Shown: one piece after another, positions 46,574-64,000 of the stretch
Position numbering within the stretch: the first letter of the stretch is position 1
Layout: the number at the start of each line of letters is the position of its first letter
Assembly: GCF_003290025.1 (NCBI RefSeq)
Contig: NZ_QNHG01000002.1
Span: 1,026,566-1,090,565 of the forward strand
Direction of reading: 5' to 3'
Length of the DNA: 64,000 nt
Source: Pseudogemmobacter bohemicus
GTDB taxonomy: Bacteria; Pseudomonadota; Alphaproteobacteria; Rhodobacterales; Rhodobacteraceae
Position numbers and translations under genes: made by a program
Notes under the pieces: model-generated
What the model saw: only the letters and a program-made list of their open reading frames with translations
The model's database searches: none
What the model was told of the DNA's origin: nothing

Positions 46574-46745
46574 CCCCCAACACCTTGCCCTGCCATCTGA
46601 CCCCAACACCCGAGCCGTTGCGCCAGAGCGCCTCCGGGCGCGCGGCGGGCCAGGAGGCGTTAAACCCCTGACACCTAGCCTTTGCCCCGCGGGTGCGCGA
46701 CTGCCTCGCGGTTAACTGCGGCTTTGACCCCGCATGGAGGCAAAC

Positions 46746-48739: not shown

Positions 48740-48841
48740 ATCCACCCTGCCGGCGGGGCGTGGGCGCGTCTGTTGCCGGCGCGGCCCATCCCATCGGGTC
48801 ATCCTTCGCCGAAACCGGGGCGGGACGCAATCCGCGACACG

Positions 48842-48877
48842 GTCCGTGTCAGAGTCCGTGTTAGAGTCTGGGTCAGG
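48842..48877. repeat. Three tandem 12-bp repeats upstream of the RTX gene
   Basis: GTCCGTGTCAGA, GTCCGTGTTAGA and GTCTGGGTCAGG follow one another directly. Immediately before lies GACACGGTCCGTGTC, a palindrome. They lie in the 289-bp gap between the divergent GT2 and RTX genes and may contain operator sites for either. Confidence 0.55.
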
Positions 48878-49028
48878 GGGCCGGGCGCCGATGCGGCGCA
48901 AATCTCCATCACCGATACAGGTTTTCCTAAAACCCTTTACGAATGCCGCTATCCTGCCCGAATGCGGCAAGAAGCCTGAAAGCACGCCTCTGCCATGATC
49001 GCAGCCGGGGAATGACGGGTGTGGGTCC

Positions 49029-52000
49029 ATGTTCCGGGTTGATGTACTGGAAACTTTTACCGATGCGCCACTGAATATGGTGTCGGGCATCGGGGATATG
49101 CTGCTGACGACAATCGGCGAGCGGCTGATGCTGTATACGACGACGCGGGCCGGGGGCGGGATCCTTGGCTTCGAGATCGGCGCGGGAGGCATGCAGCTGA
49201 TCAGCCAGAGCGCGCTGGCGGCGCGCTCGCGGCTTTCGGCGCCGCCGACGCTGGATTTCTATCAGCTGGGATCGACCCGACATCTGATCTATTCAGGGAT
49301 CGAGGAAAGCACGCTGGTTTCATTCCGGCTGAATGCCGATGGCACGCTGCGCAATACATCGCGCCCGGATGGCGGGCCGACGGGGATCATCTCGGCCCAG
49401 GTGTTGATGAGCTTCGGCGACCAGACCTGGCTTTATGCCGCAACGGCCGATAGCGGGCTGGTTTCGGTCTATTCGGTCGCTCCGTCCAATGGGGCGATGG
49501 CGCTGACCGGCACGCTGCGGCTTGGGCCGGACCTGCCGGGGATCACCCTTTCGACCATGACCGGGTTCAGCATCGGCGCCGCGCAATTTGTGGCGGTGGC
49601 GTCGCTGCAGGGCGACCGGATCGACGTTTTGCGGCTGACGGCAACCGGGCAGCCTTTTGTGGCCAGCAGCATCGGCGCGGCCGAGGGGCTGGGCATCAAT
49701 GACCCCTCGGCGCTGCGCTATGTCGAAATCCACGGCGCATCCTATCTGGTAGTCGCCTCGGGCAGCAGTTCCTCGATCACCCTGCTGGCGCTTTCTGCCA
49801 GCGGCGCGATGACGGTTGCCGATCATCTGGTCGATACGCTGGATACCCGGTTTCAGGGTGTTCTGACGCTGGAAGTGATCACCATGAACGGGCGCGGCTT
49901 TGTGGTCGCTGGCGGCGGCGATGGCGGGTTGCAGGTGTTCGAGATCCTGCCCGGCGGGCGGTTTGTCACCGCCGCGACCATCCTGCAGCAGCCTGGAATG
50001 GTGCTGGACAATATCACCGCGCTCGCGCTGCAGCCCGGCACCGACGGGTTCTGGATCTATGTCGCAGGCGAGGGGACCGGCATCACCCGGCTTTTCGTCG
50101 CGACCGGAGTGCTGCCCGCCGCGATCAGCGGCAGCGATGGCGCCGATGCCCTGAGCGGCGGCAGCGGGCATGACCTGATCCAGGGCGGGGCGGGGAATGA
50201 TACGCTTTATGGCGGTGCAGGCGATGATATCCTGATGGATGGCACCGGCAGCGACCGGCTTTACGGTGGCGCCGGGGCGGATCTTTTCGTGCTCTCGTCG
50301 GATGGGGTGGTGGATTACATCCATGACTACCAGCCGGGCATTGACCGCATCGACCTCAGCGCCTGGGGGCGGTTCTACAGCCTTGGCGATCTGACGATCA
50401 TCCCTACCGCAAATGGGGCGATCATCCGCTATGCCACCGAAGAGCTGGTGGTCTATTCCGCCAATGGCCTGCCTCTGAATGCCTCCGGCTTTGCCTCGGC
50501 CGGGATTTTCGATCTCTGGCATGCCGATTACAGTCTCTGGCGTCCGGGCAGCTCGATCCCCGGCACGCTGCGCGCCGATTACCTGCTGGGGACGGCAGGG
50601 GATGATGTCTTTCTGGCCAGCGAGGGCCAGGACACGCTGCTGGGCGGTGATGGTTTTGACCGGGTTGATTTCTCGGCGATTTCCGGCGCCGTCAGGGTCG
50701 ATCTGTTGCTGCAACGCGGGATCGGCGGTGCGGTCACCGGCCAGTTCTACGGCACGATCGAGGCCCTTACCGGCACCGTCAATGGCGACTACCTCGCCGG
50801 CTCGAACGTCGCCAATATGCTGGAGGGTGGCGCCGGCAATGACACGCTGCTGGGGCGGGGTGGCGATGACACGCTTTACGGCGGCGATGGCGACGACCTG
50901 CTCAGCGGTGGTGCCGGGGCGGATAGTTTTATCGGCGGTCCGGGGTTTGACACGGTTTATTACTGGGATCTGACCAGCGGGTTGCGCATCGACCTCGCCA
51001 ATCCGATGAACAGCACCGGCGAGGCGCGCGGCGATACCTATGAAGAGATCGAGCTGATCGCGGGCACCCTGGGCCATGACCTGATCCTGGGCGATGGCGG
51101 CAATAACGCGCTTGGCGGCATGGCCGGCAATGATACGCTGATGGGCCGCGAAGGCGATGATACGCTGAATGGCGGCGATGGCGATGACATGCTGAATGGC
51201 GGGCCGGGGGCGGATTACCTGATCGGCGGCGCCGGTATCGATCTGGTCTATTACTGGGATTCCCCCATCGGGCTGACCATCGACATGCTGCTGCCGCAGG
51301 CCGGCACCGGCGATGCCGCCGGAGACCGGTTCAACGGGGTCGAGGCGGTGGCCGGCACCCTGTTCTCCGACCAGATCTCGGGCGATAATTTCGGCAATTC
51401 GATCTCGGGCATGGCCGGCAATGACACGCTGTTCGGGCGCGGCGGCAATGACACGCTGAACGGCGGCGATGGCGATGACATGCTGCATGGCGGGCCCGGC
51501 GCCGACAGTTTCATCGGCGGCGCCGGCTATGATCTGGTGTTTTACTGGGACTCCCCCGTCGGGCTCAGCATCGACATGGTGCTGTGGATGCTGAGCACCG
51601 GTGACGCGGCCGGTGATATCTTTACCGGCATCGAGGGCCTTGCCGGCACGCTGTTCGACGACCGGATCACCGGCAATATGCAGGCCAATTCCCTGATGGG
51701 TCTTGGCGGCAATGACACGCTGATCGGGCGCAGCGGCAATGACACGCTGAATGGCGGCGATGGCAATGATACGCTGAGTGGTGGTCTGGGGGCCGATCTG
51801 CTGGTCGGCGGCGATGGTATCGACCTCGCCGTCTACTGGAACTCGGCCACGGCGGTGAATGTCGATATGATGAGCCCCGGCGCCAGCACCGGCGAGGCGG
51901 CGGGCGATGTCTTCCAGGGCGTCGAGAACCTTGCCGGCAGCCTGTTTTCAGACCGGCTCTGGGGTGACAATCTGAACAACAATATCAATGGCATGTCCGG

Positions 52001-52346
52001 GAATGACACGATTTATGGCCGGGATGGTGATGACACGCTGCTGGGCGGGGACGGCAATGATTTTCTCTATGGTGGCGCCGGCAATGACATTCTTTACGGC
52101 GGTGCCGGGATCGACACCTTCGTCTTCGATGCCGGGCGCGATCTCATCATGGATTTCACTTATGGAGAGGACAGGTTGCAGATCCAGTCCCAGATCGGCG
52201 GCACCACCCTGACCGCCACCAGCCTGCGTGCCGCCATGCAGGCCGAGGCCAATGCGGTCAGGATCAGTTTTGCTGGTGGTCATCAGCTGATCGTTTTCGG
52301 CATCACCGATCCCGACCTGCTGATGCAATCGGTGCAGCTGATCTGA
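49029..52346 (+). CDS. RTX-type calcium-binding repeat protein with propeller-like N-terminus
   Basis: 1105 aa, without an N-terminal signal peptide as expected for type I secretion. Residues about 1-365 are beta-rich with repeated xGxxxLYxAT / FVAVASxxGD-type strands, suggesting a beta-propeller. From about 370 on, hemolysin-type GGxGxDxxx nonapeptides occur ([17 protein letters not shown]). Residues from about 555 to 1065 contain a higher-order repeat: five units spaced exactly 291 bp (97 residues), anchored on the Asn codons at 50838, 51129, 51420, 51711 and 52002. Each joins a block of nonapeptides to a GLxIDMxxPxxxTGDAAGDxF segment. The C-terminus ([12 protein letters not shown]) is the probable secretion signal. 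No type I exporter genes are in the window. Confidence 0.93.
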
Positions 52347-52354
52347 GCCCCAGC

Positions 52355-52381
52355 CCCGGAAGATCAGACCCGGAAGATCAG
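52355..52381. repeat. 13-bp direct repeat between the RTX and kpsT ends
   Basis: CCCGGAAGATCAG occurs at 52355-52367 and again at 52369-52381, overlapping the kpsT stop codon. The genes converge here with a 31-bp gap. I see no terminator stem. Confidence 0.6.
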
Positions 52382-53037
52382 CCCGCGCCCATATTCTGGT
52401 TATGGGTGGCAATCGCCTCTTCGATATCCTCGAAATAGCTCAGCACCCCGTCTTCCAGCACGATGGCGGCGTTGCAAAGCTGGCGGATCACCGCGACCGA
52501 GTGATTGACCACGATCGAGCCGGAATTGCGCATCCGTTCGAGGAAAAGATCATTGGATTTCTTGCGGAACGAGGCATCCCCCACCGCTGTGACCTCATCC
52601 ACCAGATAGGTATCGAAAGCGATCCCCATCGAGACACCAAAGGCCAGCCGCGCCACCATCCCCGAGGAATAGGTGCGGATCGGCAGGTTGAAATGCTTGC
52701 CCAACTCGGCGAAATCGGCGGTGAAGGCCACCAGCTCGTCGCTGTCCACCCCGTAAAGCCGCGCCACATAGCGGGTATTCTGCGCGCCCGACAGATCGGG
52801 GTGGAAACTGCCGGCAAACCCCACCGGCCAGGACACCGATCCGGTGATGCGGATCTCTCCCGAGGTCGGGGACTGTGTGCCGGCGATCATCTTCAGCAGC
52901 GTTGATTTCCCGGCCCCGTTCCGGCCCAGCAGCGCAACCGAAGTGCGCGACGGGATCGTCAGGCTGACATTATTCGCCACCGTCTTGCTCACCCCTTCCA
53001 GGGTGAATGTCTTGGTCAGGTTGATGAACTGGATCAT
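52378..53037 (-). CDS. kpsT: Capsular-polysaccharide ABC exporter ATPase (KpsT-like)
   Basis: 219 aa. The Walker A motif is LLGRNGAGKSTLLK (about 36-49), the signature is RTYSSGMVARLAFG (about 131-144), and Walker B is YLVDEVTAVGD (about 153-163). The lack of a C-terminal sugar-binding extension and the length near 220 match KpsT of group 2 capsules, which powers export across the inner membrane. kpsE lies 21 bp upstream on the same strand and the permease gene diverges from it. In an alternative reading it could also serve the orphan permease at 5316. Confidence 0.93.
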   Translation of the reverse strand: MIQFINLTKTFTLEGVSKTVANNVSLTIPSRTSVALLGRNGAGKSTLLKMIAGTQSPTSGEIRITGSVSWPVGFAGSFHPDLSGAQNTRYVARLYGVDSDELVAFTADFAELGKHFNLPIRTYSSGMVARLAFGVSMGIAFDTYLVDEVTAVGDASFRKKSNDLFLERMRNSGSIVVNHSVAVIRQLCNAAIVLEDGVLSYFEDIEEAIATHNQNMGAG

Positions 53038-53058: not shown

Positions 53059-55350
53059 CTACCTTCGGTCACGCAGCGAGTAGAATACCAGCACCAGCAC
53101 ACCCCAGAGCATGATCAGGAAGACCGCCACCGTCGCCAGTTTCTTTTCCCGCTCGGGGAAGCGCGAGGTCTCGGCCCGGGTCGGCAGCACATGCGCCGCC
53201 AGATAGCGGGTTTGCCGGGTTGCCTGAGCGCGGGCGGCCTCATAGGCGGCGCGGGCGGCGGTATGGCTGGCTTCGGCGAATTCGCGGTCCACCGTCAGCC
53301 GCTCATATTCCGCCACCACATCGGCCATGCTTTGCTCGTCGCCGCCCAGCGTGCCGATCTTCGAGCGTTCGGCCGCGATCCGGTCGCGGATCACCGTGAT
53401 GCGGCGGTCAAGCACCTTGACGCGGGGGTCATCCGGCGGCGCGGTGCCGGCCAGCAGGTCGTAGTCAATCAGCGACTGGGCCAGTTCCTGCTCCAGCGCG
53501 CTGAGAATGGTCGACTGGCTTTGCAGATCCAGCGTCGGGTCGACGATCTGGTATTTGTTGCGGAAAGCGGTCAGATCCTGGCGCGCAATGATCAGCTTTT
53601 CGCGCGTCTCCTCCATCTCCTTGCGGGAAAAGGCGACGGCATCCTCATTGGCGATTTCGTTCAGCTTGTTGATCATCACCCCGGATTTTTCATAAATCGC
53701 CTGGGCAATGCGCTGCGCGTCATCGGGGTCGAAGGCCAGAACCCTGACCTCCATCAGCCGGGTCGAGCTGTCGTAATAGACGCTGACCATGTCCTTCCAG
53801 TATTCGATAAGGTCCTCAATGCTGCCGGTGGTATCATAGGTATACCAGGGATCGCCCGAGGGTTTCGACCAGATGGAGGCGAGGTCAAGCTCGCCCTGGA
53901 TCTCGGACACGACCTGCTGGCTGAAGATGTAATTATAGATGATGTCGGTGTCGGGGGTCGATCCGGTGCTGGTAAAGCTGGAGATCCCGGCCAGCAGGCC
54001 CAGCGTCGAGGCGCCGTCCTCGCGGTGGACGGAAAAGCCCAGCATCGAGGAATACTGGTCAGCGGCGCGGGCCCAGAGATACCAGGCGGCGACCAGGACC
54101 GGCAGCAGCACCAGAATGAAAAATGAGCCGATCAGCGCGATATGGCGTCGGCGCAACCGGCTGCGCGATGCGGTCGGAAGCGCATTGATCACCGGCCCGG
54201 CGGGACGGATCGGCTGCGCAGGAGCGACCATCGGCGCCCTGGGCGGCAGGACCGCCGGAGCAGGAGCCACCCGGGCCGGCACCACCGCTCCCGCAGCGGC
54301 AGCGGCGGGCGCCGAGGGCAGCGGCCTGACCACGGCAAGCTGGGGCTGGCCCGCTGCGGGCCTGGCTGGTGGTGCGGCAGCAGGGGCAGGGGCTGCCGCT
54401 GGGGCGCTGGCCGCAGCCGCCGTATTTGCGGGCCTGGCCGCACCCATTGCGGCGGGTTGCGCAGCGGCCGGCGCAGCCGGGCGAGGCGGGGCTGCCGGAG
54501 GCGCTGCCGCCGCAGGAGCTGCCGGGGCAGGGGCCGCCGCAGGAGCCGCATTGGGCTGTGCCGGTGCCACTGCGGCCGCCGGTGCAGCGGGGCGCGGGGG
54601 CGAGGCGGGGGCTGCCGCCTGGGGCGGAACCGCTGCCGGGCGTGGCGCAGCGGCTGCAACCGGTGCTGCAACCGGTGCTGCAACCGGTGCTGCGGCTGGT
54701 GCAGGCGCGGCAGGTGCGGGGGCCGGTGCGGCAACTGCTGGCGCTGGTGCAGCGGGTCTTGCCGGGGGAACCGGCGCGGCTGCTCCGGGATTATGGGCGG
54801 CGGGTGGAACCGCCGGTGCCGCAGGGGCAGGTGCGGGCGGCGCTGTAGCGGGGGTGGTATTGGCCGGCGCCGCTGCCATCGCGGCTGGCGGGGGAACGGC
54901 TGCCGGAGGCCTGGCTGCTGCCGGAGGGCTTGCCTGAGGTGCTTGCGGCGCGGCCGCCGGTGGTGGTGGTGGTGGTGCGGCCTGCGGTGCAGCTGGCGTG
55001 GCTGCGGGGCCTGCCACCGGTCTGATTTGCGGCGCTGGCACAGCGTTCGTCTGAGGTGCCCTTACCGGCGGCGCGGCGCCGGGATGTATCGAAGGCGCTG
55101 CAACCGGAGGGGCTGCCACGCGCGGGGCAGGTATCGCGGGCGGGGCAGGGACCGGATTTGCACCAGGCGCCGCAGGGGGCACCGCCGCAACCGAAGCCGT
55201 TGCCGCAGGGGGCTGACCCGTCGCGGCGGCTGGCAGAGCGTTTGCGGGATTATTTGCCGAAGCGGTCGCGGCGCCATTGGCTGCCGGTGTCGAACTTGCC
55301 GCCGCTGCGGGTGCGGGAGCGGCGGGAGCCGGTCTGTCGGATGGAGTCAA
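53059..55350 (-). CDS. kpsE: KpsE-like polysaccharide export protein with ~395-aa Ala/Pro N-terminal extension
   Basis: 763 aa. The last ~365 residues are a KpsE/BexC-type inner-membrane protein: a membrane segment (IALIGSFFILVLLPVLVAAW, about 402-421), a periplasmic coiled-coil region (about 560-690; SRKEMEETREKLIIARQDL) and a second membrane segment near the C-terminus (VAVFLIMLWGVLVLVFYSL). KpsE normally starts just before the first segment and has about 350-380 residues. Here ~395 residues of almost pure Ala/Pro precede it, predicted cytoplasmic. The only in-frame start after a stop at 55417 is TTG at 55350, with AGGGT 4 nt upstream. The extension is coded by G/C-rich near-repeats, so expansion by slippage is plausible. 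Confidence 0.9.
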   Translation of the reverse strand: MTPSDRPAPAAPAPAAAASSTPAANGAATASANNPANALPAAATGQPPAATASVAAVPPAAPGANPVPAPPAIPAPRVAAPPVAAPSIHPGAAPPVRAPQTNAVPAPQIRPVAGPAATPAAPQAAPPPPPPAAAPQAPQASPPAAARPPAAVPPPAAMAAAPANTTPATAPPAPAPAAPAVPPAAHNPGAAAPVPPARPAAPAPAVAAPAPAPAAPAPAAAPVAAPVAAPVAAAAPRPAAVPPQAAAPASPPRPAAPAAAVAPAQPNAAPAAAPAPAAPAAAAPPAAPPRPAAPAAAQPAAMGAARPANTAAAASAPAAAPAPAAAPPARPAAGQPQLAVVRPLPSAPAAAAAGAVVPARVAPAPAVLPPRAPMVAPAQPIRPAGPVINALPTASRSRLRRRHIALIGSFFILVLLPVLVAAWYLWARAADQYSSMLGFSVHREDGASTLGLLAGISSFTSTGSTPDTDIIYNYIFSQQVVSEIQGELDLASIWSKPSGDPWYTYDTTGSIEDLIEYWKDMVSVYYDSSTRLMEVRVLAFDPDDAQRIAQAIYEKSGVMINKLNEIANEDAVAFSRKEMEETREKLIIARQDLTAFRNKYQIVDPTLDLQSQSTILSALEQELAQSLIDYDLLAGTAPPDDPRVKVLDRRITVIRDRIAAERSKIGTLGGDEQSMADVVAEYERLTVDREFAEASHTAARAAYEAARAQATRQTRYLAAHVLPTRAETSRFPEREKKLATVAVFLIMLWGVLVLVFYSLRDRR

Positions 55351-55621
55351 TTTACCCTGACCTGCGCCTGAGTTTGCGGGTGCCTGTCGTGCGACTATAG
55401 CCAGGTCGCGGATGGATTACCAGAATATGTGCCCAGGCTCTGCCGCGAATGCGCTTGCCGCCGCCGCTGGCCCGGTGCTATTTTCCGGGAAGACGGCTGC
55501 GCCCCGGCCCGGGCTCTGCCCTTTCTCCGCCGGCAGAACCCTTCAGCAGGACAGGCTGGGCACCCTGAGGCCACCTTGGGGCTACCCTGCGGCCAGCCTG
55601 CCCGAGACGAGACCAATCCGA

Positions 55622-56443
55622 ATGACGGTGCGCTTTTCCCAGCCCCAGAAACCTGCCTCCCCCACCACAAAGCCGCGCAGCTTTGCCAGTTTCCGCGCCA
55701 TTGCCGCGCTGATGCTGCGGGAAATGTCGACCACCTATGGCCGCACGCCCGGCGGCTATATCTGGGCGATTCTGGAACCCGTGGCCGGGATCGCGATCCT
55801 GACCTTCACATTCTCGTTCCTGTTCCACAGCCCCGCCATCGGCACCAGTTTCGAGCTTTTCTACGCCACCGGCCTCTTGCCCTTCCTGATGGCGACCACG
55901 CTGACGAACAAGATCGGCAATTCGCTTTTGTTCTCGAAGCCACTGCTGGCCTATCCGGCGGTGACCTTCGTGGATGCCATTGTCGCGCGGTTTCTGGTGA
56001 ATTTCGCGACCGAGCTGCTGGTTTTCTACATCGTTATGACCGGGATCATCGTGTTTTACGACACCCGCGCCATGCTCGATATTGCCAAAGTGGCCGAGGC
56101 GATTGCGCTGGCGGCGCTGTTTGGCCTGTCGCTTGGCACGCTGAACGCTTTTCTCTTCATGCGCTTCCACCTCTGGCATGTGGCCTGGGCGCTGATTTCG
56201 CGGCCTTTGTTTATGATCTCGGGCGTGTTCTTCATCTTCAATTCGCTGCCGCCGATGTTGCGCGACTATCTCTGGTTCAACCCCTATATCCATATCGTCG
56301 GCATCATGCGCAGCGGGTTCTACCCGACCTATGACGCGACCTATGCCTCGCCGCTTTATGTCGTGCTGGTCTCGCTGGCGCTTGGGGTCAGCGGGCTGCT
56401 TTTGCTGCGCAAGGATGTGAAACGGCTGTTGTTCGAGCGCTGA
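55622..56443 (+). CDS. kpsM: Capsular-polysaccharide ABC exporter permease (KpsM-like)
   Basis: 273 aa from the ATG at 55622 (GACCAATCCGA upstream; an earlier frame start at 55412 is unlike the family). ABC-2 permease features are SFRAIAALMLREMSTTYGRT at the N-terminus, GYIWAILEPVAGIAILTFTF and a C-terminal NPYIHIVGIMRSGFYPTYDA (partly quoted). These are typical of KpsM/BexB. About six membrane segments are visible. It is divergent from kpsE, with a 271-bp gap for both promoters, and converges on the giant glycosyltransferase gene. With KpsT and KpsE it completes the inner-membrane exporter; outer-membrane KpsD/Wza and KpsC/S genes are not in the window. Confidence 0.92.
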   Translation: MTVRFSQPQKPASPTTKPRSFASFRAIAALMLREMSTTYGRTPGGYIWAILEPVAGIAILTFTFSFLFHSPAIGTSFELFYATGLLPFLMATTLTNKIGNSLLFSKPLLAYPAVTFVDAIVARFLVNFATELLVFYIVMTGIIVFYDTRAMLDIAKVAEAIALAALFGLSLGTLNAFLFMRFHLWHVAWALISRPLFMISGVFFIFNSLPPMLRDYLWFNPYIHIVGIMRSGFYPTYDATYASPLYVVLVSLALGVSGLLLLRKDVKRLLFER

Positions 56444-56476
56444 GCCGGGGCACTGCTGCACCCCGGCCCCGCTCAG
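56440..56476. terminator. Possible shared terminator hairpin between kpsM and the giant glycosyltransferase
   Basis: CTGAGC (56440-56445) pairs with GCTCAG (56471-56476), and CCGGGG (56445-56450) with CCCCGG (56461-56466). The stem covers both stop codons of the converging genes. There is no T-run, so function is tentative. Confidence 0.4.
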
Positions 56477-59400
56477 CCCAGAACTGCCAGGGTCAGACCC
56501 GGGAAGCCCGTCAGGCTGGCATCCGCCTGCCAGCGCGGCCGGAGGCTAAGACCGGCAAGCAGCCCGGCATGGCGGATATGGGCCGGCGCGCGGGCGCCCG
56601 CCTCGTCGACCGGCAGACCCGAGAGGCTGTGATGCAACTGCCAGACCTGGTTGCGGATCGCCAGCACCGGCGGCAGGAAGAGGATCACTGCGCCGGCCTC
56701 CAGCGCGCCCTGGGCTTTCGCCCGGGTCAGGGCCTCGGCGGTGCCGTGATCGTCGAAAGCGTCCACAAGCAGGCAGGACACACCGGCGAAAAGCTTCGGC
56801 GCATGGCCCTCATGCTGGCCAAGCTGGATCATGCGCGGGCCGGGGCCCGGCTGTGCAGTCAGGCTGGTGCCATGCGGCAGCCACAGAAGGCAGTCTGCGA
56901 CCGTCCCCGCTGCGCCCGAGGCCTGCAGCGCGGCCCGGGCCAGCCCGGCCGGATCGCGCAGCGAGGCCGGCGTGCCGGCGGGCATGTGATGGGCGGGCAC
57001 GCCGTCCCGGGCATCGGCGCTGGCCGGCAAAAGCGGCAGCTGCGCCAGTTCGGCGGCGTCGAGGATCTCGGCCACGATGCGGTAGCCTGCCGCCCGCGAG
57101 GTGGTTTTCGCGACAAAGCGAAGCCCGTTCAGCGCCAGCCGCTGCCAGAGCGCCGCATCGGTGTAAAGCCGCTGCACCGCTGCGGCCATTTCCTCGGGGC
57201 TGTCGGCGATCAGCACATTCTCGCCATCGGTCAGCGCCATGCCCTCGGCGCCGACCGAAGTAGTCACCACCGGCAGGCCATGCGCCATTGCCGTAACGAT
57301 CTTGCCTTTCAGCCCCGCGCCATAGCGCAAAGGCACCAGCATCACCCGCGCCGCGCCCAGCACCGGGTCGAGATCCTCGACAAAGCCCTCGATCTTCAGA
57401 TTGTCCGAGGCCAGCGCCTTCATCTCGTCGGTCGGGTTGGAGCCGATGGCGCGGAATTTCACCCCCGCCATCTTCGCCCCCATCAGGGGCGCGACATCCT
57501 TCGCGTAATGCAGCACGGCGTCGACATTGGGGTAATGGCGGTAGCCGCCGAGGAAGACGATATCCTGCCGTTTCGCGAATGGCTTGCCAGCGCCCCTTGG
57601 CTCGTAAACCCAGGGGAAGACCACGACCTTCGCCGCAGGGATCAGCCCGGCCAGCAGTTCTTTCTCGAAATGCGAATGGACGATATTCACATCCGCCGCC
57701 TCGATGATCGACAATTCCACCCGTTTGGTGCTTTCCGGGGAAAGCCTGCTCTCGGCTACATTCGGGTTGTCGACATGTTTCGCGCGTTCCTCGCGCAGGA
57801 AATGCAGGTCGGAATTGTGGAAGATCACCCTGGCCGAAGGGGCCAGCCGTTGCACCGTCGCCAGATTGTCGCTGGCCGTGTTCACCCGGAACAGCACCAC
57901 CGCATCATAGGTGTCGCCGGTCTGGGTCAGGTGATCCTCGACCGATTTCGCATAGGGATACAGTACGGATTCAATGCCATGCGCGCCCAGAAGTTCCGAA
58001 TAATCCGGGATGAAGGTGAAGTTGGAACAGGGGATGAAGCTGATCTTATAGCCCAGATCGCGCAGGCCGAGCATCAGTTCAAGCGCGGTGATGGAACCCG
58101 CATCCTTGTCGGTTTCCGGGGTGATCTGGTCGATCACCAGCACGCGACCGATGCGGCCCCGGTCGGCGGCGCGGTCGGGATCGACGCCGTTCGGCCCCTG
58201 ATGCGGCAGCACATGCGACCAGCGGTGTTTCAGCTTTTCAGCATTGATGACCTGGTAGGCCTTGACACCTTTCGTGGTGTCGGTCCCCGAGGTCACGCCC
58301 TCATAATGCACCACGCGCGACAGCGGCTGATACATGACGCTCAGCCCCATCGCCCGCAGACGGAAGGCCATATCGCTGTCTTCGCCATAAGCCGGGGTGA
58401 ATTCCGGATCAAAGCCGCCGATCGCATGCGCCAGTGCGCGCGGCAGCAGGATCGCGGCGCCCGAACAGTAATCCGCCTGGCGGGCATATTGGAATTTCGG
58501 CGCCTCGGGGTCTTGCAGCCGGCCCCAGTTCCAGCCGGAGAAATCATCCCAGATGATGCCGCCCGCCTCTTGCAGCCGCCCGTCCGGATAGATCAGCTGC
58601 GAGCCCACCATGCCGGTGCCGGGATGCATCTCGAACGTATCGACCAGCGCCGAAAGCCAGCGCGGCGTCACTTCGGTGTCGTTGTTCAGATAGCAGATAT
58701 AGGTTTTCGTGGCCTTTGTCAGACCGGCATTGCAGGATCCGATGAAACCGCGGTTTTCCGGGTTGCGGATATAGGTGATGTTGTCCCTCGCCGAGAGCAT
58801 GATCTCGGTCATATCGGACGAGCAGTCATCGACCACGATCACCTCATAGTCGATATCCTGGGTGTTCAGCCGGATCGAATCGAGGCAGCGCAGGGTATAT
58901 TCGATCTGGTTATAGACCGGGATGATCACCGAGACCGAGCGTTTCGGCAGATCCACCGGCGCGCCGGTCGAGGCCCGCGCCAGCGCCAGCGTGCGCGGCG
59001 AGATCTGGCGCAGCAAGAGCTGCGTCTGCGTCGTCAGCGCCGGCGATTTCGGCGGCACCAGCTGCAATTGCTGGCCGTAGCGGTTGATGATCGACAACCG
59101 CAGCCGGTTTTTCATCTTCTTCGGCAAGGGCAGCGCGCGGAACAGCGGGAAGGCCACCCGTTTGAACCGCCGCACCAGCCGGCTTTTCAGCCGCGCATTG
59201 TGCAAAGCGCCCTGATATTCGCGGTGCAGCCCGGCGATCTCTCGGTTCAGCCGGTCGATCTCGGCGCCACCTGCGGCGCGGTCCTCGCCGATCAGCTGGT
59301 TGAGCCGGGCCTCTTCGGCCGAGAAAGCCTCGCGGTCGAGGCGGCGCTGCATCTCGGTCTCGTCAAGCAGGGCGCTGCGTTCCGACAGCGCCGCCTGGTC

Positions 59401-61425
59401 CTGGGTCTTGTCCTGAGACAGCGCGGCCATCTGTTCCAGCAGCGCGGCCCTTTCTCCGGCCAGCCGGTCGTGATCCTCTTGCAGCCCGGCAAGGCGGGCG
59501 GTGCTGGCCGCATCGGTCTCGATAAATCCGGCGCGCTCGGTGTTCAGCCGGGCGATTTCCGCCTCAAACGCGGCACTGGCTGCGGCCTGCTGCCCGGCTT
59601 CGGCCTTCAGCCGGTCGATCTCTTCCCGCAGCGACGCACTGGCTGCAGCCTGATGTTCGACCCCGGTCCCGGCCTCGGTGTTGAGCCGGGCGATTTCCGC
59701 CTGGAGCGCGGCAACCGTCGCGGCCTCATCCTCGGCCTGGGCGCGCAGCTGGGCGATCTGGCTGTCGCGGCCCGCCAGCTGGTCGGCGGCTTCCTGTTGC
59801 AGACGGGCATACTCCTCGCTGGCCTGCTGCCGTTCCTCGGTCAGCAGCGATTCCAGCATCGCGGCCTCGGACCCGGCCCGGGCAAAGCCTGCCGCCTCGC
59901 GCCGGTCGCCCTCTTCCTGCAAACGGGCAAATTCCGCCCCGGCCTTCGCCCTTTCATCGGCGATCAGCGTTTCAAGCCTTGCGATCTCGCCTGACGAGCG
60001 GGCCAGAGCCTCGGCCTCGCGCCGCTCGGCCTCTTGCTCCAGCCGCTGGAATTCCGCCGCCGCGCGCTCCCGTTCCGAGCCGATCAGCTGTTCCAGACGC
60101 GCCTGTTCAGACCCCGCGACGCGGCGCTCATCCTCCAGCCGGTTTTGCAGGCTGGCCACCACGAGGCGCGAGGCCTCGCGTGCGGAAGTCTCGCGCGTAT
60201 CGGCCTCTTCGCGCAGCCGGGTGAATTCGGCACCGGCCTGGGCGCGCTCTTCTTCGATCAGCTGGTTCAGCCGGTCGATCTCGGCAGCGGCGCGGCTGCG
60301 GTCTTCCAGCAGGGCGGCATTCTGTGCCTCGGCCTGGGATTGCAGCGCCAGCCGCAGCGACCCCGCCTCATGGGCCAGCCCGACCGCCTCGAACATGCGG
60401 GCGATGTTGCGCCCGGCGCGGTCCTCGCCCCGGTCGATACTGTCAAGAAGCTGCGCCACTTCCGGCGCCACATCCTTGCCCGGCGCCAGCACACCAAGGC
60501 CATTGCCAAAGGGGAAATTGCAGGATGGGCCCAGCCCGCGGATCTCTTCCCACAGCTGCCAGACCCCGAAATCGTCGCTGGTCACGGCAGTGTCGTGGAA
60601 AAGCACCACCCCTCTGGACGAGAGCTTGGGCCGCCAGGCGGTGAAATCGGCGCGCACCGCCTCGTAAGTGTGCAGCCCGTCAATATGCAGAAGGTCGATG
60701 CTGCCATCGGCAAAGCCCGCCAGCGCCTCGGCAAAGGTCGCGCGCAGCAGCGTGAGCGAGGGCCCGAACTGCGCGGCACGGCGCATCAGATCGGGCAGGA
60801 TCGCATCGCCGTCATAATGGCCGGCATGGTCGTCGCCGCCCCAGGTGTCGATGCCGATCACCCGGCCGGTCTGGCCCAGATCACGGATCGAGCTGGCCAT
60901 GGAGAGGAGAGAATCGCCCTTATGCACGCCCAGCTCGACCACGAGGCGCGGCTCCAGCAGCGAGATCAGCGCGCGGGCAAAGGGGAAATGTGCGTGCCAG
61001 CTGAGAACTTCGGTCGCATGGTCGCGTCCGGCCCGCATCGCCTCGCCCAGAAGGTGATCGACAAGCCCGGCGGCAACCGGCTGCGTGGTCGCGCGCCGGG
61101 CAGGCGCTGCGGTGACGGGTTTTGCAAGGGCGCTGGTCGCCGGTTTTCCGGCGGGCAGCGGTGCGGGTTTGCGCCGTGTGGGGATATGCGGCGCTGTCGC
61201 CTGGCTGGCCGCAGCTTTGGCCGTTTTCTGCGTGTCGGCTTTGGTTTTGCCTGGCCCCGTTTTCCCGGCCCCCGTCTTTTCAGCTCTGGCTTTTCCCGGA
61301 CCGGCACCCAGCGTCGCAGAGGCGGCGGCAAAGGCTGCAACCTTTTCGCTCTGCACCCCGTCGGCCTGCGCTTTCCTGGCCGCTTTGCGGTCGGATTTCT
61401 TCCTGGTCTCGGCGGGTTTCGTCAT
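56473..61425 (-). CDS. Giant modular enzyme: methyltransferase-like, coiled coil, GT2 and GT4-like domains
   Basis: 1650 aa. Residues 1-115 are Lys/Ala/Pro-rich and disordered. About 140-300 resembles a class I methyltransferase of the Methyltransf_24 type (LVVELGVHKGDS 161-172, VIGIDTWGG 189-197, LLHIDGLHTYEAV 245-257). About 360-745 is a long coiled coil with recurring AEFxRLxEEAxRRE heptads. About 828-1050 is a GT2 domain: SVSVIIPVYNQ (830-840), VVDDCSS (864-870), NNDTEV (914-919), GEDSDMA (1014-1020). About 1090-1440 is a GT4-like domain: RVLVIDQITPE (1094-1104), GAGLKGKIVTAMAHGLPVV (1369-1387). A C-terminal ~200-residue region is unassigned. The order suggests a polymerising or branching and methylating enzyme for an exported glycan, with the coiled coil as spacer or oligomeriser. 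It lies beside a GDP-heptose module and the Kps exporter. Confidence 0.85.
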   Translation of the reverse strand: MTKPAETRKKSDRKAARKAQADGVQSEKVAAFAAASATLGAGPGKARAEKTGAGKTGPGKTKADTQKTAKAAASQATAPHIPTRRKPAPLPAGKPATSALAKPVTAAPARRATTQPVAAGLVDHLLGEAMRAGRDHATEVLSWHAHFPFARALISLLEPRLVVELGVHKGDSLLSMASSIRDLGQTGRVIGIDTWGGDDHAGHYDGDAILPDLMRRAAQFGPSLTLLRATFAEALAGFADGSIDLLHIDGLHTYEAVRADFTAWRPKLSSRGVVLFHDTAVTSDDFGVWQLWEEIRGLGPSCNFPFGNGLGVLAPGKDVAPEVAQLLDSIDRGEDRAGRNIARMFEAVGLAHEAGSLRLALQSQAEAQNAALLEDRSRAAAEIDRLNQLIEEERAQAGAEFTRLREEADTRETSAREASRLVVASLQNRLEDERRVAGSEQARLEQLIGSERERAAAEFQRLEQEAERREAEALARSSGEIARLETLIADERAKAGAEFARLQEEGDRREAAGFARAGSEAAMLESLLTEERQQASEEYARLQQEAADQLAGRDSQIAQLRAQAEDEAATVAALQAEIARLNTEAGTGVEHQAAASASLREEIDRLKAEAGQQAAASAAFEAEIARLNTERAGFIETDAASTARLAGLQEDHDRLAGERAALLEQMAALSQDKTQDQAALSERSALLDETEMQRRLDREAFSAEEARLNQLIGEDRAAGGAEIDRLNREIAGLHREYQGALHNARLKSRLVRRFKRVAFPLFRALPLPKKMKNRLRLSIINRYGQQLQLVPPKSPALTTQTQLLLRQISPRTLALARASTGAPVDLPKRSVSVIIPVYNQIEYTLRCLDSIRLNTQDIDYEVIVVDDCSSDMTEIMLSARDNITYIRNPENRGFIGSCNAGLTKATKTYICYLNNDTEVTPRWLSALVDTFEMHPGTGMVGSQLIYPDGRLQEAGGIIWDDFSGWNWGRLQDPEAPKFQYARQADYCSGAAILLPRALAHAIGGFDPEFTPAYGEDSDMAFRLRAMGLSVMYQPLSRVVHYEGVTSGTDTTKGVKAYQVINAEKLKHRWSHVLPHQGPNGVDPDRAADRGRIGRVLVIDQITPETDKDAGSITALELMLGLRDLGYKISFIPCSNFTFIPDYSELLGAHGIESVLYPYAKSVEDHLTQTGDTYDAVVLFRVNTASDNLATVQRLAPSARVIFHNSDLHFLREERAKHVDNPNVAESRLSPESTKRVELSIIEAADVNIVHSHFEKELLAGLIPAAKVVVFPWVYEPRGAGKPFAKRQDIVFLGGYRHYPNVDAVLHYAKDVAPLMGAKMAGVKFRAIGSNPTDEMKALASDNLKIEGFVEDLDPVLGAARVMLVPLRYGAGLKGKIVTAMAHGLPVVTTSVGAEGMALTDGENVLIADSPEEMAAAVQRLYTDAALWQRLALNGLRFVAKTTSRAAGYRIVAEILDAAELAQLPLLPASADARDGVPAHHMPAGTPASLRDPAGLARAALQASGAAGTVADCLLWLPHGTSLTAQPGPGPRMIQLGQHEGHAPKLFAGVSCLLVDAFDDHGTAEALTRAKAQGALEAGAVILFLPPVLAIRNQVWQLHHSLSGLPVDEAGARAPAHIRHAGLLAGLSLRPRWQADASLTGFPGLTLAVLG

Positions 61426-61463: not shown

Positions 61464-62729
61464 TCAGGGCGAGCCCAGCGGGTGAGCGGTCTTCAACAAA
61501 TCCTGCAGCACATCATCCAGCCGTCCATCCTGGAAAAGGCCGGACCGGATCCCCGCCGTGCGGGCGGCCTGCAGATCGCTTTCGCGGTCTCCTATCAGGA
61601 AGGAGCGGGTGAGGTCGATATCCATGTCCCGGGCCGCGCGCAGGATCATGCCTGGATTGGGCTTGCGGTCGGGATGGTCAGGGTGGCGCAGCGCCCCGAT
61701 CTGCGCTTCGGGGTGAAAGGGGCAGTGGTAAAAGGCGTCGATCCAGCCGCCGTGACGGCGCAGGGCCGCGTTCAGCGCCTGGTGGAACAGATCCATTTCG
61801 GCTTCGCTGTAAAGCCCGCGCCCGATCCCGGCCTGGTTGGTGACAACCACGGTCTGAAAGCCCTGCGCCCGGGCGAGGGCGACGGCCTCGGCGGCGCCGG
61901 GGATCAGCTCAAGATCGCTGATGCGATGCGTATAACCGGAATCGCGGTTCAGCACGCCGTCACGGTCAAAGAACACCGCCGGGCGGCGGGTGGCGGCGGG
62001 CAGCGCTGTCTGCGCCTCAGCATAGGTTTCGGGCAGGCCGATATCTATGAAGAACCCCTCTTGCGGCACGGCATGCAGCAGACCCGCAGCCGCCAGCGCG
62101 GGATAGATCTCCTGCTCGATGGAGCAGGGCAGGGCGGTGATGCGGTCCAGCACTTCGGCCGGCAGCACGGTCAGCCCGGCATTGATCTGGCCCGGACCCG
62201 CAACGCCCTTTTCGCGAAAACCGGTCACCAGACCGGCGGCATCGGCCTCGACCCGGCCGAAACGGGCGGTGTCGGGAACGGCGCGGGTGGTCATCACGGC
62301 ATGGCCCCGGGGCAGGGTCTCGGCCAGGGCGGCGACCTGGACCGGATCGCAGCCAAAGAAACTGTCGCCATTCACCAGGAAGAACCGGGCGTCCAGCTGA
62401 CCCTTCAGCAAGGTCAGCGCGCCGCCGGTTCCCAGCGGTTCCTCCTCGCGGCTTTCGCGCAGGGTGACGGGGCGTCCGGTCGGTCCATGCCAGCGACCCG
62501 AGGTCTCTCCCTCGCGGATGAACCCCTCGAAACTGCCGGCGAGATAGCCGGTCGAGAGGATGATCTCCTCGACCCCCGCGCGGGCGAGCCAGGTCACCAG
62601 CGTATCCAGAAACGGCCTGCCGGCGACCGGCAGCAGCGGCTTGGGCGTGGTTTTCGTCAGCACCCCCAGCCTGGTGCCGAGGCCGCCCACGAGCAGCACC
62701 GCCTGCCTGACCGCCGGGTTTGCCGTCAT
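61464..62729 (-). CDS. Fused heptose-1-phosphate guanylyltransferase (HddC) and heptose bisphosphate phosphatase (GmhB)
   Basis: 421 aa; ATG at 62729 overlaps the gmhA stop (ATGA). N-terminal ~235 residues are a sugar nucleotidyltransferase: LLVGGLGTRLGVLTKTTPKP (12-31), GTGGALTLL and a VNGDSFFG metal site. C-terminal ~185 residues are a HAD phosphatase of the GmhB type: VFFDRDGVLNRDSGYTH, VVTNQAGIGRGLYSEAE, and DRKPNPGMIL. In the GDP-D-glycero-D-manno-heptose pathway GmhB removes the 7-phosphate and HddC adds GMP, so fusion would channel the last two steps. The guanylyl assignment rests on the neighbouring hddA and gmhA; an ADP-forming or other nucleotidyl specificity is possible. Confidence 0.87.
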   Translation of the reverse strand: MTANPAVRQAVLLVGGLGTRLGVLTKTTPKPLLPVAGRPFLDTLVTWLARAGVEEIILSTGYLAGSFEGFIREGETSGRWHGPTGRPVTLRESREEEPLGTGGALTLLKGQLDARFFLVNGDSFFGCDPVQVAALAETLPRGHAVMTTRAVPDTARFGRVEADAAGLVTGFREKGVAGPGQINAGLTVLPAEVLDRITALPCSIEQEIYPALAAAGLLHAVPQEGFFIDIGLPETYAEAQTALPAATRRPAVFFDRDGVLNRDSGYTHRISDLELIPGAAEAVALARAQGFQTVVVTNQAGIGRGLYSEAEMDLFHQALNAALRRHGGWIDAFYHCPFHPEAQIGALRHPDHPDRKPNPGMILRAARDMDIDLTRSFLIGDRESDLQAARTAGIRSGLFQDGRLDDVLQDLLKTAHPLGSP

Positions 62730-63322
62730 GCGAGCTTGCCGAACATCCGCGCCTCGACCAGGGCGCAAAGCAGGTGATAGGTCACCAGATGGCATTCCTG
62801 GATGCGCGGCGTCACCGGCGAGGGCGCGATCAGGATATGGTCGCACAGCCCCGCCATTTTGCCGCCGGTGCCGCCGGTCATGCCGACGACGGTGATGCCG
62901 CGTTCTTTCGCCGCTTCGATGGCTTTCAGGATGTTCGGCGAATTTCCCGAGGTCGACAGTACCGTCAACACATCGCCCTTCTGGCCAAGCGCTTCGACCT
63001 GGCGGGAGAACACGCGCTCATAGCCGTAATCATTGCCGATCGCGGTCATAATCGAGGTATCGGTCGAGAGCGCGATCGCTGCCAGACCCGGACGGTCGAA
63101 ATGAAAGCGCGACACGAATTCACCCGCGATATGCTGCGCATCGCCGGCGGAACCGCCATTGCCGGCAAACAAGAGCTTGTTCCCTGCCTTGAGCCTGACT
63201 GTGTAAAGATCCGCCACCGCCGCCGCCGCCTCGCGGTAGGCGCGGTCCTCATAGAGGGCGGCGATGGTCTGGCGCGAGGCGTGGAATTCGGCCTCGATGA
63301 AATCCTCTATCGCACGGTCCAT
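62726..63322 (-). CDS. gmhA: Phosphoheptose isomerase (sedoheptulose-7-phosphate isomerase)
   Basis: 198 aa SIS-domain protein. It converts sedoheptulose 7-phosphate to D-glycero-D-manno-heptose 7-phosphate, the entry to heptose nucleotides. Motifs are LLFAGNGGSAGDAQHIAGEF (50-69), ALSTDTSIMTAIGNDYGYE (partly quoted) and STSGNSPNILKAI, all typical of GmhA. The start overlaps the upstream kinase gene by 16 bp and the stop overlaps the HddC-GmhB start, so the three genes are tightly coupled. Confidence 0.94.
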   Translation of the reverse strand: MDRAIEDFIEAEFHASRQTIAALYEDRAYREAAAAVADLYTVRLKAGNKLLFAGNGGSAGDAQHIAGEFVSRFHFDRPGLAAIALSTDTSIMTAIGNDYGYERVFSRQVEALGQKGDVLTVLSTSGNSPNILKAIEAAKERGITVVGMTGGTGGKMAGLCDHILIAPSPVTPRIQECHLVTYHLLCALVEARMFGKLA

Positions 63323-64000
63323 GCCTGGGCCCCCTCACTGGTAAATGTGCAATTGAACACGGTGCCATCATGGGCTTTCAGCGCCCGCAGCACGGTGGGT
63401 TTGCGCTCGGGCGGGACCGAGATCATTATGAAGCCGCCGCCACCTGCGCCCGAGATCTTGCCGCCATGCGCGCCGGCAGCCATCGCGGAGTCCAGGACCG
63501 CCTCGATCCCGTCATTCGAGATCGTCGAGGCCATGTCGCGCTTGGCGCTCCAGCCCTGGCGCATAACCTCGCCAAAGGCGGGGAAATCGCCCAGAAGCAG
63601 CGCCTCTTTCATCTGCCGCGCCTGATCCTTCAGCCGGTGCATCGCCTCGATGGATTTGGTGGCGCCCGATTTCACATTGCGGACCTGTTCGTCGATGATC
63701 TGCGCCGAGGCCCGCGAACGGCCCGAGAAATACAGGATCAGCCCCGCCTCCAGCTCGGACACAATCGAGCGGCGCAGGCGCAGCGGGTTGATGATCACCC
63801 GGTCATCGCCGTAGAATTCCATCAGGTTGAAGCCGCCAAAGGTGGCCGCATACTGATCCTGCTTGCCGCCGGCAAGGCCAAGGTCCTGGCGCTCGATCAC
63901 GAAAGCCAGATGGGCGATTTCATATTCCCCCAAAGGCAGCCGCAGGAATTCCGCCATCGCGGTGATTACCGCGACCACCATGGTCGAGGAAGAGCCAAGG
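63307..64000 (-). CDS. hddA: D-glycero-D-manno-heptose 7-phosphate kinase (GHMP family), 5' end outside window
   Basis: The C-terminal ~231 residues are present; the frame is open at position 64000. The GHMP ATP-binding motif LGSSSTMVVAVI lies at the window edge and GKISGAGGGGFIMI, the third GHMP motif, is near the C-terminus. IERQDLGLAGGKQDQYAATFGG is the strongly conserved middle block of HddA-type kinases (partly shared with galactokinase relatives). It phosphorylates heptose 7-phosphate at C-1. It is the first visible gene of the hddA-gmhA-hddC/gmhB unit and runs into gmhA by 16 bp. The promoter is beyond the window. Confidence 0.9.
   Translation of the reverse strand, partial: LGSSSTMVVAVITAMAEFLRLPLGEYEIAHLAFVIERQDLGLAGGKQDQYAATFGGFNLMEFYGDDRVIINPLRLRRSIVSELEAGLILYFSGRSRASAQIIDEQVRNVKSGATKSIEAMHRLKDQARQMKEALLLGDFPAFGEVMRQGWSAKRDMASTISNDGIEAVLDSAMAAGAHGGKISGAGGGGFIMISVPPERKPTVLRALKAHDGTVFNCTFTSEGAQAWTVR

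Follow-up and report, generated by a model that had tools for sequence, protein, structure and literature searches.

The closest published precedent for the protein analysed here is ORF6 of Klebsiella pneumoniae O7, in which a methyltransferase, a kinase, a coil and two GT2 glycosyltransferase modules follow one another, and which was assigned by experiment as both polymerase and terminator, as described in PMC11231755. The 1650-residue protein of the window (the whole 64,000-nucleotide stretch of Pseudogemmobacter bohemicus DNA that was analysed) resembles ORF6 in having an N-terminal methyltransferase (MT), a central coil and two C-terminal glycosyltransferase (GT) modules on one chain, so that, going by this description, the MT–coil–GT–GT layout is not new. 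The pathway in which ORF6 acts uses an ABC transporter and includes a stand-alone GT, as that of the window protein would by gene content. In ORF6, according to the same account, the MT and the coil are separated by a kinase and a CBM-like domain, both missing from the window protein: there was no Pfam match to either in this region, and in the AlphaFold2 model a long helix begins at residue 336, shortly beyond the end of the MT fold. ORF6 also carries two GT2 modules, whereas the window protein has a GT2 followed by a GT4-like module (PMC11231755). Unlike that of O7, the window's exporter is of Kps type without a Wzt_C domain, ORF6 having been compared by description rather than by sequence alignment.

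The likeness to WbdD drawn in a first-pass annotation of this DNA was apt, even if ORF6 is closer (PMC11231755). WbdD likewise has an N-terminal methyltransferase, a long coil and a membrane-proximal end after the coil (PMC3482155, PMC5082667). Insertions into and truncations of its coil are described as changing O-antigen length (PMC5082667), and its E. coli O8 homologue, methyltransferase-only, suffices (PMC3482155). The WbdD of O9a is described with a kinase, no GT modules, catalytic domains ~20 nm off and a cap that is read by Wzt. WbdD has a membrane-associated amphipathic helix after the coil and recruits its polymerase there, whereas in the window protein the GTs are covalently joined. 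In WbbB of K. pneumoniae O12 the terminator transfers Kdo. WbbB unites a terminator, two GTs and a coil ruler in one chain, but its terminator is a glycosyltransferase, not a methyltransferase (PMC11231755). WsaE of Geobacillus stearothermophilus combines an N-terminal methyltransferase and two GT domains in one protein and adds a methyl cap, but to an S-layer glycan served by Wzm/Wzt (PMC2943079). For the Kps capsule pathway, the account given in the review PMC12220298 includes no ruler or terminator.

An E. coli protein named ‘class I SAM-dependent methyltransferase’ (L024) has a Methyltransf_24 domain about 44% identical to that of the window and a long, length-variable coil. Its gene directly follows a Kps exporter, and the GTs are unfused, being the next genes. 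This locus appears to resemble the group 3 clusters described in PMC10433991 and PMC13171606, which as published mostly carry rhamnose genes, whereas the window cluster carries heptose genes.

Gene, reading frame and enzyme modules

The order of modules along the protein is an N-terminal Methyltransf_24 domain, a helical coil, a basic amphipathic segment, GT2, a GT4-like module and a C-terminus without assignment (Table 1). The four modules of the first-pass annotation and their order were confirmed by Pfam, AlphaFold2 and scans of orthologues. The frameshift artefact that it had allowed for was rejected, since the same order occurs in a single frame in three genomes (the window and two others); the codon-position GC of the gene, coding-like throughout and weak in the first 150 codons, also opposes it. 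Elsewhere in the genome there were just two weak matches, to the GT2 region, and the window had no Rfam match at gathering cut-offs.

Table 1. Features of the locus, with coordinates in the window and residue numbers of the 1650-residue protein
Feature	Coordinates	Strand	Basis
1650-aa methyltransferase / coiled-coil / GT2 / GT4-like protein	56473..61425	(-)	ATG, one ORF; Pfam; orthologues
Methyltransf_24 domain, residues 163–279	60589..60939	(-)	Pfam E 1.3e-24; 16-sequence alignment; AlphaFold2 model and its matches
Long helical coil, residues about 336–764, 381 residues between conserved anchors	59134..60420	(-)	AlphaFold2, shuffles
Basic amphipathic segment after coil, residues 740–789	59059..59208	(-)	Charge, hydrophobic moment
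GT2 domain, residues 832–1045; DD, NND, ED motifs	58291..58932	(-)	Pfam, alignment
GT4-like C-terminal half, residues 1287–1423	57157..57567	(-)	Pfam; low-confidence model
C-terminal region, residues 1456–1650, no family assigned	56476..57060	(-)	Pfam, hhalign
KpsM-like ABC permease	55412..56443	(+)	NF050053 KpsM best, 80.6 bits, below cut-off
KpsE/BexC/CtrB-type protein, long Pro/Ala-rich N-terminal extension	53059..55350	(-)	TIGR01010, 207 bits, below cut-off
KpsT-type ABC ATPase, 219 aa, without Wzt_C	52378..53037	(-)	Pfam
Nucleotidyltransferase (HddC-like) fused to GmhB-like heptose bisphosphate phosphatase	61464..62846	(-)	Equivalog models all below cut-off
GmhA, sedoheptulose 7-phosphate isomerase	62726..63322	(-)	TIGR00441 above cut-off
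HddA-like heptose 7-phosphate kinase, cut by window end	63307..63999	(-)	NF049969, 272.8 bits on partial protein
Stand-alone GT2 of cluster, true start probably inside ORF	47792..49192	(-)	Neighbour scans

Alignment of 16 sequences showed the conserved MT motifs ELGVHKGDS, DTWGGDDHAG, LLHIDGLHTYEAV and LFHD. Pfam also gave a match to RMNT_CmcI at residues 152–281, barely above its cut-off. The AlphaFold2 model matched metal-dependent O-methyltransferases, including MeT1 of Mycobacterium hassiacum, a sugar-methylating enzyme; MeT1 was also a weak sequence match (E 0.008) when the MT profile was run against PDB sequences, and no WbdD chain was present among the seven PDB sequences matched by that profile at E up to 1. 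The domain thus appears, on the model, to be metal-dependent O-methyltransferase-like, and the SAM-methyltransferase fold claimed previously is supported by the model and its structure matches.

Glycos_transf_2 was matched at residues 832–970 (E 1.1e-28) and Glyco_trans_1_4 at residues 1287–1423 (E 3.5e-24) by Pfam. In the GT4-like part, Thr replaces the second Glu of the EX7E motif. The same Glu was absent from 8/8 GT4-bearing proteins, the window's included, in an alignment that left out L041 and L044, and decay of the motif specific to the window was rejected on these grounds. Because the residue is missing in relatives too, the activity of the putative GT4 is in question. An AlphaFold2 model of the GT2, GT4 and C-terminal part (residues 736–1650) had a mean pLDDT of 42.3, and its Foldseek matches count as weak support. 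The C-terminal region is 43% identical between the window and the orthologue L005, and had no Pfam match in any of the three orthologues (residues about 1456–1650), even at E up to 10. A second methyltransferase in this region was rejected: hhalign against the MT gave a probability of 0.5%, and Pfam gave nothing.

Coil and basic amphipathic segment

The coil was modelled by AlphaFold2 as helices at residues 336–504, 512–667 and 687–764 (protein residue = model residue + 110), with confidence below 50 at about 631–697. In 5000 shuffles no Pro-free run exceeded 236 residues, whereas the longest one observed is 438 (322–759). One of 2000 shuffles equalled the coil's LIVMFY spacing at lags 3/4/7/11/18, a signal that was not elevated in the MT, GT2, GT4 or C-terminal stretches. 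Periodicity on a hydropathy scale was weak (39/500 shuffles), as was a second such measure (49 and 25 of 1000), in which the MT and GT2 control stretches beat the coil on the heptad score; two of the three coil measures on the window protein are thus weak. Among 14 relatives tested, the coil was clear in 6 and unsupported or borderline in 8.

Between conserved anchors the coil measures 381 residues in the window, 271 in L004 and 116 in L005, while alignments of the window with the other orthologues had no gaps in MT residues 140–333 or in residues 740–1464. At the textbook 0.148 nm per helical residue, these coils would span roughly 57, 40 and 17 nm, if continuous. The coil is not alone in drifting in length: the tail N-terminal to the MT varies as well, by ~104 residues between the window and L005. 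Coil indels in clean heptad or hendecad multiples were rejected (window versus L004: total 110, aligned gaps of 18, 39 and 53), and we claim no repeat unit. The E. coli MT–coil alleles differ by 32 and 96 residues, and another (L052) by 15 and 25.

Directly after the coil, residues 740–789 carry a net charge of +14 in 50 residues, and the peak hydrophobic moment of the whole protein falls at 748–765. The strongest moment likewise lies directly after the coil in L004, and top segments lie there in L005. From these properties the segment may contact the membrane.

Exporter, neighbouring genes and relatives

By sequence, the exporter would fit the Kps (group 2/3) type, with KpsM, KpsT without a carbohydrate-binding domain and KpsE, the subtype assignment resting on scores below cut-off. 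The start of the KpsM-like ORF is mechanical and the real start is probably later. We use the name KpsT because of the size of the ATPase, its lack of Wzt_C, its KpsE neighbour and its blastp match to the ATPase of L024 (38.6%); its best NCBIfam score was to a galactan Wzt/RfbE model (117.6 bits, below cut-off). As in E. coli group 2/3 export, KpsC, KpsS and Poly_export are also present in the genome, but here they lie in L020, ~324 kb from the cluster, as two PF05159 proteins and a single Poly_export protein; the cluster may share their use.

Wzt_C (PF14524) was absent from the KpsT of the window, L004 and L005, and was found in 0/4 genus genomes searched, all three carriers among them. KpsT here is therefore without the domain that links cap to export in the WbdD system. 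The exporter's missing cap-reading domain had been overlooked in the earlier annotation.

The full-length protein was found in just 3/13 genus genomes. Identity to the window protein in the other two orthologues is 87% and 58% over the MT region and 91% and 66% over the GT half. As the first-pass annotation had proposed to check, hddA, gmhA, hddC-gmhB and the KpsT, KpsE and KpsM genes travel with the gene in 3/3 orthologues. Blastp with 15 cluster proteins (excluding the gene's own four parts) matched 15/15 in L004 and 13/15 in L005, where both GT2 queries match one gene. Two stand-alone GT2 genes occur in the window locus, two in L004, and one was seen in L005; with these genes in the cluster, and with the GT4 part lacking its Glu, the single-chain polymerase suggested earlier stays putative, as do its capping and length control.

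In another genome of the genus (G004), the MT is encoded separately from the GTs, carries a coil-like tail of its own and lies beside KpsE/KpsT. Of the earlier expectation that the domains would be linked and connected with glycan export, the first half fails in G004 and the second still holds. Among the 22 loci viewed with a Methyltransf_24 relative (a view that left out the MT matches L018 (G091), L038 (G559) and L007), the exporter was an ABC ATPase with Wzt_C in 7, of Kps type without Wzt_C in 5 and neither in 10; the five Kps-type loci are the three orthologues, the same-genus split form and the E. coli capsule locus. A tree for the origin of the Kps-linked MTs had 2/13 inner branches starred, both within the orthologue trio. 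The coil-bearing query was matched in at least 2 of 100 family genomes, a weak lower bound with at most nine candidates scored per genome; the MT-alone query was matched in 3/196 genomes and the MT profile in 8/289, the window's own genome being counted in each case.

A proposed length-control machine and its alternatives

We favour, at somewhat better than even likelihood, a methyl-capping, coil-ruled machine that extends and ends glycan chains and feeds a capsule-type exporter. This reading is based on the domain order, the varied coil between collinear enzymes, the Kps neighbours and the precedents of O7 ORF6 and WbdD. The basic amphipathic segment would anchor the GT2/GT4 modules of the C-terminal part to the inner membrane. 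There, together with the cluster's stand-alone GT2 enzymes, they would elongate a glycan, probably one containing D-glycero-D-manno-heptose supplied by HddA, GmhA and GmhB-HddC, and probably built on a Kdo-lipid primer made by KpsC/KpsS, whose genes lie elsewhere in the genome. The coil would be a self-associating rod that keeps the N-terminal O-methyltransferase tens of nanometres off the membrane, so that only a chain that has grown as far as this enzyme would be O-methylated at its non-reducing end and stop growing. Export would be through the neighbouring KpsMTE, which unlike Wzt has no cap-reading domain; the methyl cap would then be a stop signal and not an export ticket. In this scheme, we infer the sugar, linkages, methylated position, oligomer, membrane contact and ruler action.

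A serious alternative, though an unlikely one, is that the coil is a mere spacer or oligomerisation rod, that the MT decorates along the chain, and that the balance between synthesis and Kps export determines length, which is also the presumption for other transporter-dependent capsules. The drift in coil length, shared with the N-terminal tail, is what a neutral spacer would show, and the E. coli typing paper PMC13171606, in the part concerned with group 3 putative methyltransferases, does not expect variation in coil length to be critical. The KpsT without a cap-reading domain is also in keeping with it, and methylation need not be terminal, because four further methyltransferase-like genes lie upstream (2/4 checked by Pfam). 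Against this, the layout is like that of proteins with an established coil ruler, as these are described (PMC11231755, PMC5082667), and Methyltransf_24 precedes the GT modules in all the scanned relatives in which the two are fused.

It is quite improbable that the GT modules make a short oligosaccharide linker or primer, as the conserved three-GT block of E. coli group 3 may, with the MT as an accessory. The wckC-wsaE-wckE genes are proposed as linker makers in group 3 clusters, as discussed in PMC10433991, and the same-genus cluster has its separate MT paired with a WsaF_C glycosyltransferase; yet this would leave few other GTs for the polymer, namely the two stand-alone GT2 in the window cluster, and it is hard to see what a short linker would need a 381-residue coil for. 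A glycan on a surface protein such as the adjacent RTX protein, with KpsMTE serving another polymer, is very improbable: the clusters of the window, L004, L005 and G004 do contain RTX-type genes (Pfam-checked for the window and L019) and the genome has a second KpsE-type locus, but KpsM, KpsE and KpsT directly adjoin the gene in 3/3 orthologues, and the proteins scanned, a non-systematic sample of the cluster, included no recognisable oligosaccharyltransferase.

Within the reading of a methyl-capping, coil-ruled machine, we tentatively suggest, as possible rather than probable, that a covalent polymerase, ruler and terminator sets the length of a Kps-exported capsule: the coil would measure, the methyl cap would stop growth and export would ignore the cap. 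Evolution would retune length by coil indels between collinear enzymes, and those E. coli MT–coil alleles that are set apart by clean insertions or deletions in the coil would be the unfused version.

The chain length of transporter-dependent capsules is presumed, in the review PMC12220298, to follow from synthesis and export, a matter said there to warrant further investigation. The layout described here is known from O-antigens; what is unusual is the capsule-type (Kps) exporter alongside it. In the three orthologues, collinear enzymes are joined to coils of 381, 271 and 116 residues, a natural length series for testing capsule chain-length control. Should a coil ruler of the O-antigen type also act on glycans exported by Kps, chain length could be controlled independently of cap-dependent export.

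Architecture and predicted structure

The 1650-residue protein had been read in the first-pass annotation as a methyltransferase (MT), a coil, a GT2 and a GT4-like domain in one chain, an architecture confirmed by Pfam domains and by an AlphaFold2 model of the MT and helices. Its class had also been guessed correctly and is already published. PMC11231755 describes K. pneumoniae O7 ORF6 as a methyltransferase, kinase, coil and two GT2 domains that polymerizes and terminates; its authors regard the extended coil as a characteristic marker of the polymerase/terminator strategy, which they say is applied to ABC-exported polysaccharides of different classes. They also describe orthologues, some having GT modules and some lacking them, from alphaproteobacteria, gammaproteobacteria and cyanobacteria. 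The Hib capsule, also transporter-dependent, is described there as having no chain-terminating residue. WsaE combines a methyltransferase with two GTs (PMC2943079).

The window MT retains the motifs ELGxHxGxS, DTWxGDxHAG, LLHIDG and FHD, like most of the 16 aligned sequences. AlphaFold2, run on residues 111–800 from a three-sequence alignment (mean pLDDT 66.7), returned a seven-stranded MT fold, with pLDDT of 72–90 in most ten-residue blocks of the core and near 60 in two, followed by helices at 336–504, 512–667 and 687–764, with low confidence at about 631–697. By Foldseek, this model resembles metal-dependent O-methyltransferases such as MeT1, SafC and catechol O-methyltransferase. The GT half was modeled poorly (mean pLDDT 42.3); despite this, GT4 enzymes were its top Foldseek matches, a ranking that gives weak support to a GT4 identity. 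The second Glu of EX7E is missing from all eight aligned GT4-bearing proteins; this subfamily may use an unusual GT4 chemistry. Residues 1456–1650 matched no Pfam family in any of the three orthologues. An open frame antisense to the gene is probably explained by high GC codon use.

Coordinates of the gene, its domains and associated features (L004 and L005, orthologue loci; L021, a relative's locus; L019 and L020, other stretches of the window's genome)
Feature	Location	Strand	Remark
Main ORF	window 56473–61425	minus	1650 residues, single frame
Methyltransf_24	residues 163–279		Pfam
GT2	residues 832–970		Pfam
GT4-type domain	residues 1287–1423		Pfam
GT4-type domain lacking second EX7E Glu	window 57157–57567	minus
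Antisense open frame	window 56569–59994	plus	1141 aa
KpsE-type protein	window 53059–55350	minus
KpsE-type protein	L004 15687–17729
KpsE-type protein	L005 14771–16096
HddC-like nucleotidyltransferase + GmhB-like phosphatase	window 61464–62846	minus	single fused protein
RTX calcium-binding repeat protein	window 49029–52346	plus
RTX calcium-binding repeat protein	L019 7108–9810
RTX calcium-binding repeat protein	L021 6885–10169
DUF2793 protein	window 46734–47795	plus	adjoins cluster; likewise in L004, L005
Genes upstream of hddA	L019 977–7050		adjoins window's right end
KpsC + Poly_export protein + KpsS	L020 7988–12612		clustered, about 324 kb off

Coil length in orthologues and relatives

The full protein was present in 3 of 13 genus genomes: the window, Paracoccus sp. 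IB05 (L004, 1517 aa) and Xinfangfangia sp. CPCC 101601 (L005, 1264 aa). From anchor to anchor, the coil measures 381, 271 and 116 residues, respectively. Pairwise alignments to the window were gap-free over the MT (140–333) and over 740–1464; gaps outside the coil affected the N-terminal tail, by 36 residues in L004 and by about 104 in L005, and L005 alone had a few at the C-terminus. Over residues 736–1650, identity to the window was 91% (L004) and 66% (L005).

By blastp, all 15 neighbor proteins were matched in L004 and 13 in L005, including KpsT, KpsE, KpsM, HddC-GmhB, GmhA, HddA, RTX and DUF2793 proteins; L005 had no match for one methyltransferase and the sulfotransferase, and two GT2 queries hit one gene there. 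In seven other loci tested by blastp, no heptose genes were found. The stretch upstream of hddA carries four genes resembling methyltransferases, two of them checked by Pfam, together with a Sulfotransfer_3 protein and a second stand-alone GT2; this content suggests that the glycan is methylated and perhaps sulfated.

A long Pro/Ala-rich region extends the KpsE-type protein at its N-terminus (by about 400 residues in the window). The whole ORF decreases like the adjoining protein's coil, from 763 (window) to 680 (L004) and 441 aa (L005), on three points only. All three orthologue loci have RTX proteins, one of which is serralysin-like, within or adjoining the capsule cluster, and so does G004, a same-genus genome with a separate MT gene; an annotated calcium-binding protein is also close to the Aureimonas relative.

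A close DNA match to the gene of the E. coli capsule locus L024 was found in 17 of 5426 E. coli genomes, four of which were covered by the allele comparison. Alleles of 912 and 816 aa (L050 and L051) are 99.9% identical over the aligned part and differ by a single clean 96-residue gap located in the coil. The L024 protein (880 aa) is a 32-residue step from the longer allele, and the fourth (840 aa, 86% identical) shows gaps of 15 and 25 against L024.

The coil was assessed by the spacing of LIVMFY positions against 2000 shuffles, a third measure picked after the results of two Kyte–Doolittle-scale measures were known; on both of these the window signal was weak, and on one, a heptad score, the MT and GT2 controls exceeded the coil. 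LIVMFY spacing was matched by 1 shuffle in the window, 32 in L004, 24 in L005 and none in the E. coli and Methylocystis relatives, and was not elevated in four control stretches of the main protein. A 438-residue proline-free run exceeded all 5000 shuffles (maximum 236). The strongest amphipathic segment, 748–765 (net +6), immediately follows the coil; the 50 residues from 740 carry a net charge of +14, and the post-coil position also ranked first in L004 and L005.

An MT profile search matched 8 of 289 same-class genomes, the window's own counted. By Pfam, the MT is followed by GT2-GT2 (L040, L042, L043, L045), GT2-GT2-GT4 (L041), GT2-GT4 (L055, Aureimonas), GT2-GT4-RgpF (L023), GT4-RgpF (L044), RgpF-HAD (L053), GT4 (L022, L054), GT2 (L056), GT4-GT2-methyltransferase (L058) or no GT (L021, L024, L046); this list leaves out L057, and the MT proteins of L049 and L006 are short. 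In the region separating the MT from the first GT, the coil measure was clear (no more than 15 of 2000 shuffles) in L021, L023, L040, L041, L042 and L054, borderline (50 to 155) in L043, L045 and L053, and without signal at 2000 shuffles in L044, L046, L055, L056 and L058; on the first coil measure, L023 showed no elevation (167 of 500). Taken together, the domain orders and coil measure show that MT-GT2-GT4 exists outside the genus; L023, in which RgpF comes next, is the one such case whose coil is supported.

Transporter settings

Surroundings were inspected for 22 MT loci, the window among them. An ABC ATPase with Wzt_C, the carbohydrate-binding domain that reads the cap in the WbdD system, was found in seven (L040, L041, L042, L044, L053, L054 and L049, the last with the MT as a small separate protein), and a Kps-type exporter without Wzt_C in five (window, L004, L005, L021, L024). 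In L056 the ABC ATPase is short and lacks Wzt_C, and KpsE is not annotated inside the stretch. No exporter was seen in nine (L006, L022, L023, L043, L045, L046, L055, L057, L058), an absence that is weak evidence because the stretches can be short (about 0.1 kb to 15 kb per side), some come from incomplete plasmid gene tables, and a weak ABC match in L006 (24%) was left out of the count.

Wzt_C was found in none of the four genus genomes searched, all three carriers included. The top model for the window ATPase was galactan Wzt/RfbE (117.6 bits, under cut-off), and KpsM and KpsE scored under NCBI's cut-offs; these scores tell against a simple Kps label. The KpsC–Poly_export–KpsS locus is remote from both KpsE-type loci of the window's genome, the second of which lies about 108 kb off. 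In G004, the MT is encoded on its own, as a 508-aa protein whose tail is coil-like; the gene adjoins KpsE and KpsT as well as a WsaF_C glycosyltransferase, a further methyltransferase and a sulfotransferase. A literature search, mostly without subscription papers, found no account of a Kps exporter paired with a methyltransferase-coil-GT fusion.

Role of the coil

What the analysis adds is comparative: the same MT module occurs both beside Wzt transporters that read the cap and beside Kps-type transporters, which cannot read a cap in the Wzt manner. In this Kps setting, the MT is fused to a GT2–GT4 unit, and coil length varies about threefold between relatives. A serious rival is that the coil is a neutral spacer: group 3 putative methyltransferases vary in coil length, which a Nat. 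Microbiol. typing paper, in a single sentence, does not expect to be critical (PMC13171606). For WbdD, PMC5082667 reports that the coil keeps the catalytic domains about 20 nm off the membrane and that an altered coil alters chain length. Because the MT module occurs in both transporter settings and coil length varies, the comparison argues, without proving it, that the coil has some role other than presenting a cap for export; the leading candidate for that role is length control.
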